Assembly (NCBI GenBank): GCA_025351485.1
Contig: JANXVU010000142.1
Span: 1-50,814, forward strand
From: Candidatus Eiseniibacteriota bacterium
GTDB taxonomy: Bacteria; Eisenbacteria; RBG-16-71-46; JACRLI01
Direction of reading: 5' to 3'
DNA: 50,814 nt
In this document: positions 20,336 through 25,996 of the stretch, in pieces
How positions within the stretch are numbered: position 1 is the stretch's first letter
Layout of the letters: every line of letters begins with the position of its first letter
Notes under the pieces: generated by a model
The model's input: only the letters and a program-made list of their open reading frames with translations
What the model was told of the DNA's origin: nothing
Database searches by the model: none
Made by a program: the position numbers and the translations under genes

Positions 20336-21442
20336 CTACTTGAGCAGCACCATCCGGGCGTCCGCGGATTGCCCGGAGTCCGTGCGCAGGCGGACAAAAT
20401 AGAGACCCGAGCCCCGCACGGCAGGCGCCCACTGGATCGAGCCGGGCCCGGGCGGGAAGGGCTGGGCCGGGCGCGAGTCCACGCGGCGACCGCTGGAATC
20501 GTAGAGGTCCAGCGACACCAGCGCCCGTTGCGAAAGCCGGAACCCCAGAGTCACCGCCTGCCCGCGCACGGCCGGATTCGGGCGGGGAAGAGCAGCCGAG
20601 AACGCGAGGTCGCCCGAAGGCTCCCCCACCGCCGTGGCCGCGGGGGTATCCACGCCCAGGCCCTTCACGGTTAGCTGGTTGATCACGCCGCGCCATTTCC
20701 AGGTGACGCCGTCCGCGGAGGTGGCCACTTCCCCGGTGCCGGCGCCGGCGATCAGCGTGGCCTTGTCACTGGTGAGAGAGGTCAGTCCCACCTGGGAAAG
20801 GGTGCCCTTGGCGGTCCAGGTGGCCGCGGAGTCGCTGCTGCTGTAGATGTCGCCGGTGGAGGTCATCATGTACAATTTGCCGAACACCATTCGCAGGCGG
20901 ATCGCATCCGAAACAACGATCGTCCCGCGGGTGGTCCAGGCCGCGCCGTTGTCGTTGCTCTTGGAGATCTCGCCCGTGGCGCTCAGCACGTAGAGCGCCG
21001 CGCCCGACCCGCTCATTCCCAGGCTCACGTAGTTGGAGCCGGTCAGCGCCCCGGTGGCCGTGAACGTGGCGCCGCTGTTGACCGAGCGGTACAGCGTTCC
21101 GGTAGCCGTGAGGAGTACCACCGAAAGGTCGGGCTTCACCATCAGGTCCACCACGTCGTTCGCACCCACCGCGCCCACCGCGGTCCAGTTCAACCCGGCA
21201 TCCGGAGATCGATAGACCACGCCGCTGGCGCTGGCCAGGTAGAGCTGGAACGTGGAAGATCCGGCGCTGAGCGCCACCGCATCGCGCACCGGCAGCGCGG
21301 AGCGGACGGTCCAGGTGAGCCCCTGGTCGGGGGAGGAATACAGTTCACCGGTGTTGATCAGGCCAAAGAGGGTGGTGGCCCCCGAAGGGGATGCGACGAT
21401 CAGGCCGAAGGCAAACAGGCCCGCAAGAAAGAACTTCTTCAC
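20336..21442 (-). CDS. Exported beta-propeller with C-terminal sorting (FlgD-Ig-type) domain
   Basis: A 368-aa exported protein: signal peptide (MKKFFLAGLFAFGLIVASP), then about six repeats with S-x-D-x-G-x-x-W or N-x-G-A-x-[WF] motifs (SSPDQGLTWT, RSPDAGLNWT, RSVNSGATFT, KSNDNGAAWT, SSSDSAATWT), i.e. BNR/sortilin-like propeller blades. The last ~85 residues read PRPNPAVRGQAV, VSLDLYDSSGRRV, GSGLYFVRL and end DARMVLLK, the type IX-like sorting/FlgD-Ig module. Such domains usually lead to cell-surface export. The start codon is GTG 21442; no strong ribosome-binding site is seen. Confidence 0.82.
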   Translation of the reverse strand: MKKFFLAGLFAFGLIVASPSGATTLFGLINTGELYSSPDQGLTWTVRSALPVRDAVALSAGSSTFQLYLASASGVVYRSPDAGLNWTAVGAVGANDVVDLMVKPDLSVVLLTATGTLYRSVNSGATFTATGALTGSNYVSLGMSGSGAALYVLSATGEISKSNDNGAAWTTRGTIVVSDAIRLRMVFGKLYMMTSTGDIYSSSDSAATWTAKGTLSQVGLTSLTSDKATLIAGAGTGEVATSADGVTWKWRGVINQLTVKGLGVDTPAATAVGEPSGDLAFSAALPRPNPAVRGQAVTLGFRLSQRALVSLDLYDSSGRRVDSRPAQPFPPGPGSIQWAPAVRGSGLYFVRLRTDSGQSADARMVLLK

Positions 21443-21553: not shown

Positions 21554-21757
21554 TCACGGCTTCCCCTTGAACATCGCCGCGTCCAGGTTCGACCACAGGT
21601 GGATGATCCAGCCCAGCAGAAAGAACCACAGGATGCCCGCCATCACGAACATCACGATGGCGATCCCGAGCCACCCCTGCAGGAGCTGCCCGAGCCCGGG
21701 AATGAAGAAACTGGCTAGCGCGGCAATGACGTTACCGGTAGAACCCTGGCCTGCCAT
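21554..21757 (-). CDS. Small membrane protein, TM2-like
   Basis: A 67-aa protein with two hydrophobic helices (VIAALASFFIPGLGQLLQG and IAIVMFVMAGILWFFLL). The FFIPGLGQLLQGW motif is the signature of TM2/DUF5683-like small membrane proteins, whose function is unknown. GAGGAGG lies shortly before ATG 21757. The promoter region is shared with the divergent cold-shock leader. Confidence 0.7.
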   Translation of the reverse strand: MAGQGSTGNVIAALASFFIPGLGQLLQGWLGIAIVMFVMAGILWFFLLGWIIHLWSNLDAAMFKGKP

Positions 21758-21835: not shown

Positions 21836-21864
21836 TTGACAGGGCCAGCCGGGTATGGTCTTAT
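21836..21864 (+). promoter_or_regulatory. Candidate promoter of the cold-shock leader
   Basis: TTGACA at 21836-21841 matches the -35 consensus exactly. TCTTAT at 21859-21864 gives the ideal 17-base spacing and 4 of 6 matches; TTATAG two bases later is an alternative -10. It reads towards the leader hairpin and the cold-shock gene. Confidence 0.6.
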
Positions 21865-21892
21865 AGGTAGGAAGGTTCAAGTTTCGTAGCGT

Positions 21893-21929
21893 AAGGCTGT
21901 CGGAGCTTCTTCTCCGTACAGCCTTTTTT
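21893..21929 (+). terminator. Intrinsic-terminator hairpin in the cold-shock leader
   Basis: AGGCTGT-CGGAG (21894-21905) pairs with CTCCG-T-ACAGCCT (21912-21924), with one bulged T and a 6-base loop, followed directly by TTTTTT (21924-21929). This is a textbook intrinsic terminator, yet it lies about 75 bases before the cold-shock start codon and ~30 bases after the likely promoter, so it may attenuate transcription into the gene. Confidence 0.7.
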
Positions 21930-21936
21930 AGTTTTG

Positions 21937-21975
21937 CCCGGCACGGTGCCGGGTGAAGGTGGGGCCACATGCCCC
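21937..21975 (+). promoter_or_regulatory. Two further hairpins in the cold-shock leader
   Basis: CCCGGCA and TGCCGGG (21937-21953, loop CGG) form a perfect stem, and GGGGC/GCCCC (21961-21975, loop CACAT) a second. Structured leaders are characteristic of cold-shock mRNAs, which refold with temperature; a role here is inference. Confidence 0.5.
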
Positions 21976-22002
21976 GGTCTAACAGGAAAGCAGGAAAGCA
22001 AC

Positions 22003-22206
22003 ATGGTTCAGGGAACCGTCAAGTGGTTCAACGATGCAAAGGGTTTTGGATTCATCTCTCAGGACGGCGGCGAAGACGTGTTCGTCCACCACTCGGCCAT
22101 CAGCGCCGACGGCTTCCGCTCCCTGGCGGAAGGCGAGCGGGTGGAGTTCGATGTCACCACCGGCCCGAAGGGTCTGCAGGCGAGCAACGTCCGCAAGTCC
22201 TCCTAA
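22003..22206 (+). CDS. cspA: Cold-shock protein
   Basis: A 67-aa single-domain cold-shock protein, an RNA chaperone that binds single-stranded nucleic acid. [21 protein letters not shown] contains RNP1 (KGFGFI) and is followed by RNP2 (VFVHHSAI) and the family end [19 protein letters not shown]. The start is ATG 22003, preceded by repeated AGGAAAGCA, a weak ribosome-binding site. The leader holds a terminator and two more hairpins, and a second terminator follows the gene. Confidence 0.95.
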
Positions 22207-22273: not shown

Positions 22274-22306
22274 ACGGCCCGTGGCGAAAGCCATGGGCCG
22301 TTTGTT
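22274..22306 (+). terminator. Terminator after the cold-shock gene
   Basis: ACGGCCCGTGGC (22274-22285) pairs with GCCATGGGCCGT (22290-22301) over a GAAA tetraloop, with one G-T pair, followed by TTTGTT. The stem is 12 bp. Its 3' arm lies just before the ribosome-binding site of the DUF3311 gene. Confidence 0.75.
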
Positions 22307-22322
22307 CAATAGGAGACCCGAC

Positions 22323-22556
22323 CTGAAGACCGAGCCGAGCCTTCGCCCCTACCACCTGCTCGCCCTGCTCCCCGTCCTGGGGATCTTCGGCGGCGTGCCG
22401 CTGGCAAACCGGGGCCGCCCGTTCGTTCTGGGAATGCCATTTCTATTGTTCTGGATCGTCTCCTGCGTCCTGCTCACCTCGGCGGTGATGGCCCTGATCG
22501 GCGCCCTGGACCGCGAGCGCTCCGCCGCGGGCCCCGAAAGGCGCAAACCCCGGTGA
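22323..22556 (+). CDS. DUF3311 family small membrane subunit
   Basis: A 77-aa membrane protein with two helices (YHLLALLPVLGIFGGVPLA and MPFLLFWIVSCVLLTSAVM). The RPYHLLALLPV start and PLANR-x-x-P-x-VLGMPFLLFW pattern are the DUF3311 family, which accompanies a sodium:solute symporter in monocarboxylate-type transporters. The frame is open upstream to 22281, but the only ribosome-binding site, AGGAG at 22311-22315, is seven bases before a CTG codon at 22323, so a rare CTG start is proposed. It overlaps the symporter start by four bases as GTGA. Confidence 0.75.
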   Translation: MKTEPSLRPYHLLALLPVLGIFGGVPLANRGRPFVLGMPFLLFWIVSCVLLTSAVMALIGALDRERSAAGPERRKPR

Positions 22557-24028
22557 ACCCCGCCCTGCTGGTCATCCTGTTGTTCCTGGGAATCGCGTTC
22601 GGCTTGGGGCTCCTGGCCCGGCGGGGGCGCACCATGAACCTGGAACAGTGGAGCGTGGGCGGGCGCGGCTTCGGCACGCTGTTCGTCTTCCTGCTGATGG
22701 CCGGCGAGATCTACACCACCTTCACCTTCTTGGGCGGCAGCGGCTGGGCCTACGGCAAGGGAGCTCCCGCCTTCTACATCCTGTGCTACGGATGTCTCGC
22801 GTACACCATGTCCTACTTCCTGCTGCCGGTGGTCTGGCGCTACGGCTCGCGCCACCGGTTGCATTCCCAGGCCGATTTCTTCAGGAGCAAGTACGGGAGC
22901 CGCGCGCTGGGTGTCGTGGTCTCGCTGGTGGGCGTGGCCGCGATCCTTCCCTACCTGGTGCTGCAGCTCAAGGGGCTGGGGATCATCGTTTCGGAGACCA
23001 GCTATGGGAGCCTTTCCCCCGCCGTGGCGGTGTGGCTCAGCACGGCCGTGCTGGTGGCCTACGTGATCGTTTCAGGCGTGCACGGTTCGGCCTGGACCGC
23101 GGTGGTCAAGGACGTGATGATCCTGGGGGTGGCGGTGGCGCTGGGTCTGTACCTGCCGTGGCACTACTTCGGCGGGCTGCGGCCGATGTTCGAGGCGATC
23201 GACAAGGCCCGGCCGGCGTTCCTTACCCTGCCCTCCAAGGGCATGAGCCCTGCGTGGTTCCTGTCCACGGTGGCGCTGAGCTCGATGGGCTTCTACATGT
23301 GGCCCCACGGGTTCGCCTCCACCTACACCGCCAGGTCGGAAGACGTGTTCCGGCGCAACGCCGCCATGATGCCCCTCTACCAGCTGGTGCTGCTGTTCGT
23401 GTTCTTCGCGGGGTTCGCGGCCATCCTGGTGGTGCCCGGGCTCAAGGGGACCGACGCGGACCTATCGCTGCTGCGGATCTCGCAAATGGGATTTTCGCCA
23501 TGGCTGGTCGGAGTGATCGGGGCGGCGGGGGTGCTGACGGCGCTGGTGCCCGGCTCGATGCTGCTGCTCACGGCGGCGACGCTGCTGGCCAAAAACGTCT
23601 ACGGCGCGCTCGTGCCCGGGGCGAACGAGAAGTCGGTGGGCACGCTGGCCAAGGCGCTGGTCCCGGTGATCGCCCTGGCGGCGGTGCTGATCACGCTTCG
23701 GGGCGGGGCGGGCATTGTGCCGCTGCTGCTGATGGGCTACAGCATGGTCACCCAGCTATTTCCCGCGCTGCTCCTGAGCCTGCCCGAAACACCCTGGGCC
23801 ACCACCGCCGGCGCGCTGGCCGGGATTTTCACCGGCGAGGCCGTGGTGCTGTACCTGACGTTCTCAGGGGCCACGCTGGCCAGGCTCTTCCCCGCCTGGC
23901 CGGGTGTAATCACCGACCTGAACGTGGGCATCGTGGCGCTGGCACTGAACGCGGTGGCGGTGGTGACGGTGAGTTCGATGACGAGGCGGGTCGAGGCGGA
24001 TCGCCGGGCGGTGCCCCGGCGGGCATGA
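22553..24028 (+). CDS. Sodium:solute symporter (SSS family)
   Basis: A 491-aa inner-membrane transporter with about 13 helices. Family landmarks: the second-helix region W-S-V-G-G-R-G-F-G-T, GEIYTTFTFLGGSGWAYGKG, RYGSRHRLHSQADFFRSKYG, a glycine-rich loop SSMGFYMWPHGFASTYTAR, and PGSMLLLTAATLLAKNVYG. It probably takes up a monocarboxylate or other organic acid using sodium or proton, as suggested by the adjacent DUF3311 subunit; the substrate is not predictable. GTG 22553 starts inside the stop of DUF3311. Confidence 0.88.
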   Translation: MNPALLVILLFLGIAFGLGLLARRGRTMNLEQWSVGGRGFGTLFVFLLMAGEIYTTFTFLGGSGWAYGKGAPAFYILCYGCLAYTMSYFLLPVVWRYGSRHRLHSQADFFRSKYGSRALGVVVSLVGVAAILPYLVLQLKGLGIIVSETSYGSLSPAVAVWLSTAVLVAYVIVSGVHGSAWTAVVKDVMILGVAVALGLYLPWHYFGGLRPMFEAIDKARPAFLTLPSKGMSPAWFLSTVALSSMGFYMWPHGFASTYTARSEDVFRRNAAMMPLYQLVLLFVFFAGFAAILVVPGLKGTDADLSLLRISQMGFSPWLVGVIGAAGVLTALVPGSMLLLTAATLLAKNVYGALVPGANEKSVGTLAKALVPVIALAAVLITLRGGAGIVPLLLMGYSMVTQLFPALLLSLPETPWATTAGALAGIFTGEAVVLYLTFSGATLARLFPAWPGVITDLNVGIVALALNAVAVVTVSSMTRRVEADRRAVPRRA

Positions 24029-24078: not shown

Positions 24079-25203
24079 TCAGCTGCGGTTCTTCTTGACG
24101 ATCAGGACCAGCGACGCCATCCCCATCAACATCAAGATGCCGGTGTTGGGCTCGGGCACCGCCGAAAGCTTCCCGAACAGGCCATCCTGCTCCCCATTGA
24201 TCCCGGCGGTGAAGTACATTTCGTTTTTGGCCCCACCGTTGCCCCCATTCCCGAACATCAAGCCCCAGAGACCATCGATGTGAAGCGCATTGCCCTTGCC
24301 GTCGAGCATCTGTCCCTGGGACGCGCCAGTCAGCGGGTCATAGGCGTTGATGGTCCCATCTCCGAAATTTCCCACCAGCAGGTCGTTGCTGAAGTCGCCG
24401 AAGTCCCCGGGCGCCAGCGCAAGGCCCCACGGCGAGTCCAGGCTGCCCTGCGAGACGAGCCGCTGCACGAAACTGCCGTCGGTGTTGAATACGTCCACGA
24501 ATCCGTGACCCGCCCCGCCCACGTCATCGTGCTTGGCGGCGTCCTGGAGCGCATAGGTGACATACAGCTTGCCTCCGATGTTCTGGATATTGAACGGAGC
24601 GTATCCGGACGGAAGGGTGGGATCGGTAAAGGGCGTGGCGAACAACGTCGGGTTGTAGTTGCCATCGAAGACGTCAATCCGGCCATCGTGAAAGTTGGCG
24701 GCGTAGAGATAGTTGAGTGCGCCGCTGGTACCCATGGCAAGCCCCTTGTAGACGGCGCCGGACACGATGGCGTCCGTTTCGGCGTTGGTGCCCAGGGCCC
24801 CCCTCCAGCCGGAAATCGTTCCATCCTCTCCTGCGAAGATGAAGCGATTCGCCTTGAAGTCCGAGCCGCTGTTGAACACCTGGCCCGTGGGCGAACCGGA
24901 TTGGGCTGCAAAGGAAACCACCAGGCCCTGCTTGGCTCCGGCTCCATTGTAGAGCGTGGAAAGGTCAGAGCCGTTGTCAGAGACCCAGATCGGGCTCGTG
25001 GCAGATGAGGACATTCCCCATGGGTTGATCATGCCCGGGTCGGTGAACTTGGCAAGGCCCGGGATGTTGGAGACCAGGTTGGTCTGGTCATAGCCCAGAA
25101 AGGCACGGGCGGGTTGTGCGGCCTGCAATCCAAAGAGCACCAACAGGATGGCGAGTCGGGACACACGGACGCGCCTGGTCATCGTCGAGAGCACATGGAG
25201 CAT
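24079..25203 (-). CDS. TIGR03118-family exported protein with PEP-CTERM tail
   Basis: A 374-aa exported protein: signal peptide with basic start (MTRRVRVSRLAILLVLFGLQ), then the TIGR03118 pattern (INPWGMSSSATSPIWVSDNGS, STLYNGAGAKQGLVV, PFNIQNIGGKLYVTYAL, RLVSQGSLDSPWGLALAPGDFG, GNALHIDGLWGLMFGNG). It ends in a PEP-CTERM signal: VPEP, a hydrophobic helix (GILMLMGMASLVLIV) and a basic end KKNRS, which would be processed by an exosortase. AAGGAGG lies five bases before ATG 25203; the far longer open frame is a shadow. No exosortase is in this window. Confidence 0.85.
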   Translation of the reverse strand: MLHVLSTMTRRVRVSRLAILLVLFGLQAAQPARAFLGYDQTNLVSNIPGLAKFTDPGMINPWGMSSSATSPIWVSDNGSDLSTLYNGAGAKQGLVVSFAAQSGSPTGQVFNSGSDFKANRFIFAGEDGTISGWRGALGTNAETDAIVSGAVYKGLAMGTSGALNYLYAANFHDGRIDVFDGNYNPTLFATPFTDPTLPSGYAPFNIQNIGGKLYVTYALQDAAKHDDVGGAGHGFVDVFNTDGSFVQRLVSQGSLDSPWGLALAPGDFGDFSNDLLVGNFGDGTINAYDPLTGASQGQMLDGKGNALHIDGLWGLMFGNGGNGGAKNEMYFTAGINGEQDGLFGKLSAVPEPNTGILMLMGMASLVLIVKKNRS

Positions 25204-25351
25204 GACGCCTCCTTGTTGTTGGGGAATCCGGAGCATAATCCAGCAAGCCGGGCCGTGCCAAGCTCCATCTTTCCCGCCGACGGCGCCGGCCGGGCCGGTG
25301 CGGGCCCAACTCCCCACGCAGAAAAGCGCCTGACCCAAGCGCGGATATTTA

Positions 25352-25365
25352 GTACGCTTTCGTAC
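25352..25365 (+). promoter_or_regulatory. Candidate operator of the SRPBCC-MarR operon
   Basis: GTACG, CTTT, CGTAC is a perfect inverted repeat, in a local TAG…ACATT context, 52 bases before the SRPBCC start. MarR proteins usually bind palindromes in their own operon's promoter, so this may be the autoregulatory site; a TATTTA box lies just upstream at 25346-25351. Confidence 0.45.
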
Positions 25366-25417
25366 ATTCCGATACCGTTGGAACAACGAAGGGCACTCAC
25401 GAGCTGGGAGGAACCGA

Positions 25418-25996
25418 ATGACGCGCGTACTTTCGATGATCTGCGCCTTCGCTGGAGCCGCCGCGCTGATGGCCCTCTCCGCCTCGCGGGGCAAGGGCGC
25501 GACGGGCCCGGCCGCGGCCGAGTCCACGCCGTCCCTGAGACGGGAGACGCGAACGATGAACCTCAGGCTCCGCGCTCCGGCAGATGAGATTTTTCCGCTC
25601 TTCGGCCCGGTGCGCGAGGCCGAATGGGCGATGGGATGGGCGCCGAAGTTCGCCTCGCCCAATCCCCCCGCGCAGGATCCGGACTGCGCCGTGTTCACCA
25701 CCCAGGGCCATGGCGGGGAGGCCACCTGGGTGATGAAGCAATTTGATTCCACGAGCCGGCAGGTGAACTACGTGGTGGTGCGCCCCAAAGTGGTGGTAGT
25801 AGAGATCCACATCGCGGTGTCCCCCGCGGAGCCGGGCCGGAGCTTGGCCGCGGTGACCTACCGCCTCACCGCCCTCTCCGCGGCGGGAAACGAACACATC
25901 CGCGAGTGGATCGAGCAATTTCCGCACATGGCCCCGCACTGGGAAGAGGCCCTCACCAGCCGGCTGGCCACCCTCGCCGGGGAGGGGAGGAAATGA
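25418..25996 (+). CDS. SRPBCC-like protein with signal segment
   Basis: A 192-aa protein: hydrophobic start (MICAFAGAAALMALSASRG) then a START/SRPBCC (polyketide cyclase) fold, with RLRAPADEIFPLFGPVREAEW and the C-terminal WEEALTSRLATL helix that typically closes the ligand cavity. Such proteins bind hydrophobic small ligands. GGAGGA lies before ATG 25418. Its stop overlaps the MarR start as ATGA, so the two are coupled. Confidence 0.72.
   Translation: MTRVLSMICAFAGAAALMALSASRGKGATGPAAAESTPSLRRETRTMNLRLRAPADEIFPLFGPVREAEWAMGWAPKFASPNPPAQDPDCAVFTTQGHGGEATWVMKQFDSTSRQVNYVVVRPKVVVVEIHIAVSPAEPGRSLAAVTYRLTALSAAGNEHIREWIEQFPHMAPHWEEALTSRLATLAGEGRK

Follow-up and report, generated by a model that had tools for sequence, protein, structure and literature searches.

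Why should the gene for a cold-shock protein be preceded, within its own transcript, by what looks like a complete intrinsic terminator? The question arises from a cold-shock (csp) gene in the window, that is, the whole stretch of 50,814 nucleotides analysed here. The answer favoured below, with a probability of roughly 0.6, is that the leader of this gene works by transcription attenuation at the first of its hairpins (hp1), a reading built on sequence comparison. The argument draws on the following features:

21836–21864, plus strand: putative sigma70 promoter, with TTGACA at 21836–21841, a 17-nt spacer, TCTTAT at 21859–21864 and TG preceding the -10 box
21871–21892, plus strand: 5' leader segment with GUUUCG, taken from alignment A3, able in principle to pair with the 5' arm of hp1
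21893–21925, plus strand: hp1, a terminator-like hairpin of 13 bp, AAGGCUGUCGGAG-CUUCUU-CUCCGuACAGCCUU, with one bulged U, -19.5 kcal/mol
21924–21929, plus strand: U tract (T6), followed by AGTTTT, read from the sequence
21932–21958, plus strand: hp2, with an A-first pentaloop, perfect as CCCGGC-ACGGU-GCCGGG at 21937–21953
21961–21975, plus strand: hp3, G+C-rich and adjoining the Shine-Dalgarno region, perfect as GGGGC-CACAU-GCCCC
21984–22000, plus strand: purine-rich Shine-Dalgarno region, AGGAAAGCAGGAAAGC, read from the sequence
22003–22206, plus strand: cold-shock protein gene (P0001), 67 aa, Pfam CSD PF00313, E 3.5e-29
22274–22301, plus strand: intrinsic terminator 3' of the csp gene, which served as internal yardstick

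The preliminary description had placed a TTGACA box and a 17-base spacer ahead of a hairpin with TTTTTT about 75 bases before the ATG, with two more perfect hairpins behind it. These elements are all present: the T6 run lies 73 nt ahead of the csp ATG (22003), and the two further hairpins are hp2 and hp3. The -10 box is weak, matching at 4 of 6 positions with a second position that is not A, and the promoter scanner missed the promoter because of this imperfection. From the position of the promoter, the transcription start is expected at about 21870–21872. TTGAC is also found upstream of hp1 in the leader L113, in 14 of 15 Gemmatimonadota leaders and in 13 of 19 Rokubacteria-type leaders, which makes it likely that the start is placed upstream of the terminator. 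The GUUUCG element is unchanged in the three closest leaders (alignment A3).

The neighbour gene upstream of the csp leader (21554–21757) is divergent in orientation; hp1 is therefore part of no upstream transcript, and a role as terminator of that gene was ruled out. Downstream of csp, a small membrane ORF (22281–22556) precedes a sodium/solute symporter-like gene (22553–24028), whose NCBIfam match to MctP falls well under the cut-off. Two minus-strand genes near csp (24079–25752 and 20336–21442) were noticed by eye, the product of one having a PEP-CTERM-like tail and that of the other a type-IX-secretion-like C-terminal region.

Taken by itself, hp1 has the make-up of an intrinsic (Rho-independent) terminator, being a G+C-rich stem-loop with an immediate U tract, and it occupies the place of an attenuator, between the promoter and the controlled gene, where the start is predicted from the sequence and the conserved TTGAC. 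For an RNA of about 62 nt that stops with the U tract the folding energy is -20.7 kcal/mol (z -3.27), which 0 of 200 shuffles equalled, and the entire window leader has a fold z of -2.42, yet such single-leader statistics are not decisive, as 23–30% of shuffled leaders from the phylum pass the terminator test. The d'Aubenton-type score of hp1 is 27 without its two A-U end pairs and 10 with them, which is comparable to the score of 19 obtained for the csp 3' terminator.

More telling is the behaviour of the hairpin across the phylum, for which the leaders of about 80 csp genes were collected, 61 of them, including that of the window, being of the GTVKWF type. A hairpin occurs in the expected interval in 60 of these 61 leaders, a U-rich tail not being required for the count. 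The 8 nt after the stem contain on average 5.4 U in the 60 leaders, against a background of 1.5, and at least 4 U are found there in 51 of 60 leaders versus 8% of the background. The U frequency by position after the stem is 0.80, 0.88, 0.78, 0.63, 0.70 and 0.63, and it declines past position 9. Hairpins located 3' of 28 csp genes have a mean of 3.8 U in 8 nt, below that of the leaders, and the leader stems are weaker than these 3' hairpins (mostly -12 to -24 versus -26 to -39 kcal/mol), a difference which fits the expectation for a partial terminator. A few csp leaders, such as L125 and L129, retain the hairpin without the U tract. Terminator-like hairpins at a similar distance also occur in single leaders from Desulfuromonadota, Acidobacteriota, Chloroflexota and Latescibacteria, which no model ties to the family.

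The preliminary description had asked whether relatives keep the stem with compensatory changes, and they do so, with the U tract at the stem foot and TTGAC upstream in most of them. Alignment A4 comprises 32 leaders (a mixed alignment, A6, was left out because hp2 is misaligned in it); pairing across its four helices amounts to 91.5%, and 13 pairs have changed on both sides, while 0 of 500 shuffles were as high on any measure, in a control that ignores the relatedness of the leaders. For hp1 alone the pairing is 93.4%, and 4 of its 8 pairs show two-sided changes. Sliding the partner strand by 1–3 columns reduces pairing to 30–47%. An alignment-free swap test points in the same direction, whereby a leader's own hp1 arms fit each other better than the arms of other leaders in 6 of 6 groups (p 0.0002–0.03).

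Covariance models extend the comparison beyond the phylum. Model R1, built from A4, gave 57 matches in 39 genomes, 53 of them immediately upstream of csp genes, many of these matches being training sequences. Its other four matches comprise one beside a csp fragment (G027:C7), an opposite-strand overlap of a true match, a weak match (E 0.008) and one in G013:C119; the R1 search did not match the window leader. The last of the four (L309/L311, G013:C119:15000–16700, minus strand) has a leader of the csp type, comprising a promoter-like GATATT, GUCUUCGGUUG, hp1 with UUUUUG and hp2, and the gene behind it codes for a fatty acid hydroxylase domain (PF04116, E 9e-8) and not for a cold-shock protein, so that the element may possibly have been captured by a membrane-lipid gene. 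Model R2 was built exclusively from 12 Gemmatimonadota leaders and thus did not include the window in its training set. Its top match in the 50.8-kb window lies at 21893–21998 (25 bits, E 5e-5), the next reaching 10 bits, and the match spans the full length of the model, from hp1 and the U tract through hp2 and hp3. In the window's whole genome, where a first-pass filter scored only some of the candidates, the window leader was not among the R2 matches listed, and background matches there reach up to 21 bits, against which the 25 bits are good but not overwhelming. The same model gave 13 matches under E 0.001 in 30 Rokubacteria-type genomes, and by their coordinates 13 of 13 directly adjoin csp genes; its 13 matches in Gemmatimonadota include 12 csp leaders, which, however, had served to train the model.

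The window carries every element of the leader type described by R1 and R2, namely hp1 with its U tract, an A-first hp2, a hairpin before the Shine-Dalgarno region and csp downstream. Judged from the alignments and models, this leader type is conserved, csp-specific and common to Eisenbacteria-type, Gemmatimonadota and Rokubacteria-type genomes, i.e. at least three phyla. A search of the window against Rfam 15 returned no family at threshold. Membership in the cspA thermoregulator family (RF01766) was rejected, as the window reached 40.2 bits where the gathering score is 78 and aligned best over the coding part, and the scores in relatives (18.8–74.7 bits) are likewise all under 78. A plasmid search yielded best matches confined to the csp coding region. 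The csp leader type is a candidate for a new RNA family that Rfam 15 does not contain.

If the leader acts by attenuation, the course of events may be pictured as follows. Transcription would start about 20 nt ahead of hp1, and RNA polymerase would soon reach hp1 and the U tract, where part of the complexes would stop and release an RNA of about 60 nt. The remaining complexes would read through to hp2, hp3 and the csp gene, and the ratio of stopping to read-through would set the level of csp mRNA. Considering its form and conservation, hp1 likely terminates in vivo. The preliminary description had suggested attenuation on the strength of the terminator's position: the conserved stem, the U tract and the upstream TTGAC speak for this reading, but no coevolving antiterminator helix was found in the groups that were testable. 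Termination would most likely be regulated by cold, by the cold-shock protein or by both, through direct action on the hairpin as it emerges or on the U tract, which is the simplest arrangement because no antiterminator helix has coevolution support. Protein-mediated attenuators can do without a mutually exclusive antiterminator. In E. coli CspE, the aromatic residues corresponding to the KGFGF and VFVHH motifs are required for melting and antitermination, and both motifs are retained in P0001, as read directly in the protein. Bae reportedly found in 1999 that CspE affects cspA transcription in E. coli, an instance of a Csp regulating csp transcription. An action of Csp on hp1 is plausible because E. 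coli Csps relieve intrinsic terminators (PMC9765468; PMC11648934). A wider proposal, which we advance only tentatively, is that of an undescribed, multi-phylum autogenous attenuator, whereby Csp would act on the conserved terminator in its own leader, either relieving termination or, as negative feedback, favouring it, and csp transcription would sense both free Csp and cold.

The same structures could also serve after transcription. Here hp1 to hp3 would control mRNA stability or ribosome access in the manner of cspA, and the U stretch would be a landing site for Csp. The conservation of the downstream hairpins lends this explanation weight: hp2, with its A-first pentaloop, and the hairpin adjacent to the Shine-Dalgarno region are conserved approximately as well as hp1. 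The hp2 pentaloop starts with A in 30 of 32, 20 of 21, 11 of 13 and 3 of 3 leaders of four groups, figures which lean upward as the selection favoured A loops when present, and the helix equivalent to hp3 covaries in A4. U-rich RNA is, moreover, preferred by CspC and CspE of E. coli (PMC7858274). The swap test adds that the 5' strand coevolves with the sequence 3' of hp1 in two groups, one family and the Gemmatimonadota (p 0.0002 and 0.016), which implies a read-through structure enclosing hp1, beyond attenuation alone. The placement of the U residues argues the other way, in that their enrichment begins at the stem foot and fades about 9 nt on, as in a terminator, whereas a landing site needs no such placement. 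We consider a purely post-transcriptional leader unlikely, albeit worth keeping in mind.

Two further observations concern pairing in this part of the leader. In Eisenbacteria f2 leaders (e.g. L163, L175 and L137) the conserved 5' GUCUUCGGUUG pairs and coevolves with the sequence intervening between hp1 and hp2 (CUUGG/CCAAG in L137). A pairing of the Shine-Dalgarno region with a 5' CUUC/CCU element, proposed by RNAalifold for alignments A1 and A2, was set aside, as it is almost invariant and hence has no covariation support.

A classical attenuator would place the switch in the RNA itself, in that an antiterminator would form between the 5' strand and the 5' arm of hp1, the balance being shifted by temperature or by Csp. 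Such a duplex can be drawn in the window, where AAGUUUCG is able to pair with CGGAGCUU, and in the three closest leaders, which are all that the window's close clade comprises, the hp1 5' arm is invariant and the 3' arm variable. The duplex outdoes its shuffled counterparts in the f5 family (mean z -1.0) and in the Methylomirabilales-type leaders (mean z -1.9), but that of the window is no better than chance (z +0.4), and the swap test of the 5' region against the hp1 5' arm revealed no coevolution in any tested group (p 0.21–0.97). As a general mechanism the classical antiterminator was thus abandoned, compelling as it looked on inspection (in the window GUUUCG/CGGAGC, in f5 CCUGACGGU/GCCGCAGG); we regard it as improbable for this leader, though it may apply in the f5 and Methylomirabilales-type leaders.

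The Methylomirabilales-type csp leaders (L266–L271) have a very uniform hairpin, GAACCGCGAAAGC...GCUUUCGCGGUUUUUGUUUAUC, whose 5' arm is matched by a complementary 5' strand, and of the sequences compared they are the likeliest to hold a true antiterminator. The Geobacter-like csp leaders L070, L085 and L068 are characterized by a long closing helix, AAGUUUCGGA ... UCCGGAAACUU, the 5' strand of which is similar to AAGUUUCG in the window leader.

It is very improbable that the csp promoter yields an independent small RNA finishing at hp1, while csp itself is expressed through leakage: the terminated product of about 60 nt, with its stable 3' hairpin and U tail, would suit such a role, but the element occurs almost exclusively ahead of csp genes, pointing to action in cis. 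That hp1 is a chance hairpin or the terminator of an upstream gene has next to no likelihood, for although G+C-rich leaders form hairpins randomly, as the shuffled leaders demonstrate, the conservation, the coevolution and the divergent upstream gene contradict it.

How, then, does attenuation at hp1 compare with known systems? In the f5 leaders (alignment A2), CCUGACGGUYGUACGCAG near the 5' end resembles the E. coli cspA cold box, a likeness that may be due to chance. The cspA thermosensor leader (RF01766) likewise provides a cold-shock gene with a structured 5' UTR, yet E. coli cspA is described as working through refolding, mRNA stability and translation (PMC7858274), whereas what the window type conserves is a hairpin that looks like a terminator and carries a U tract. 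The order of promoter, terminator and gene is shared with intrinsic-terminator attenuators such as transcriptional riboswitches and amino-acid leaders; by comparison, the csp leader has no noticed ligand domain or leader peptide and no supported antiterminator. In the open-access literature no description of a csp leader with a conserved terminator was found; attenuation and Csp antitermination are already known, and it is the cross-phylum conserved terminator in the csp leader itself that appears to be undescribed. The control of cold-shock genes is known chiefly from E. coli cspA, and a csp-leader terminator conserved across uncultured and little-studied phyla, if true, would constitute a second route, at the level of transcription. 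The closest functional likeness is with E. coli Csp antitermination, by CspA, CspC and CspE at metY-rpsO and by CspD at SgrS and other terminators, where a chaperone of the same family alters read-through of an intrinsic terminator (PMC9765468; PMC11648934). There the terminators are those of other genes, whereas the candidate terminator of the window sits in the leader of csp itself, which, if true, would offer the antitermination activity of Csps a substrate in nature.
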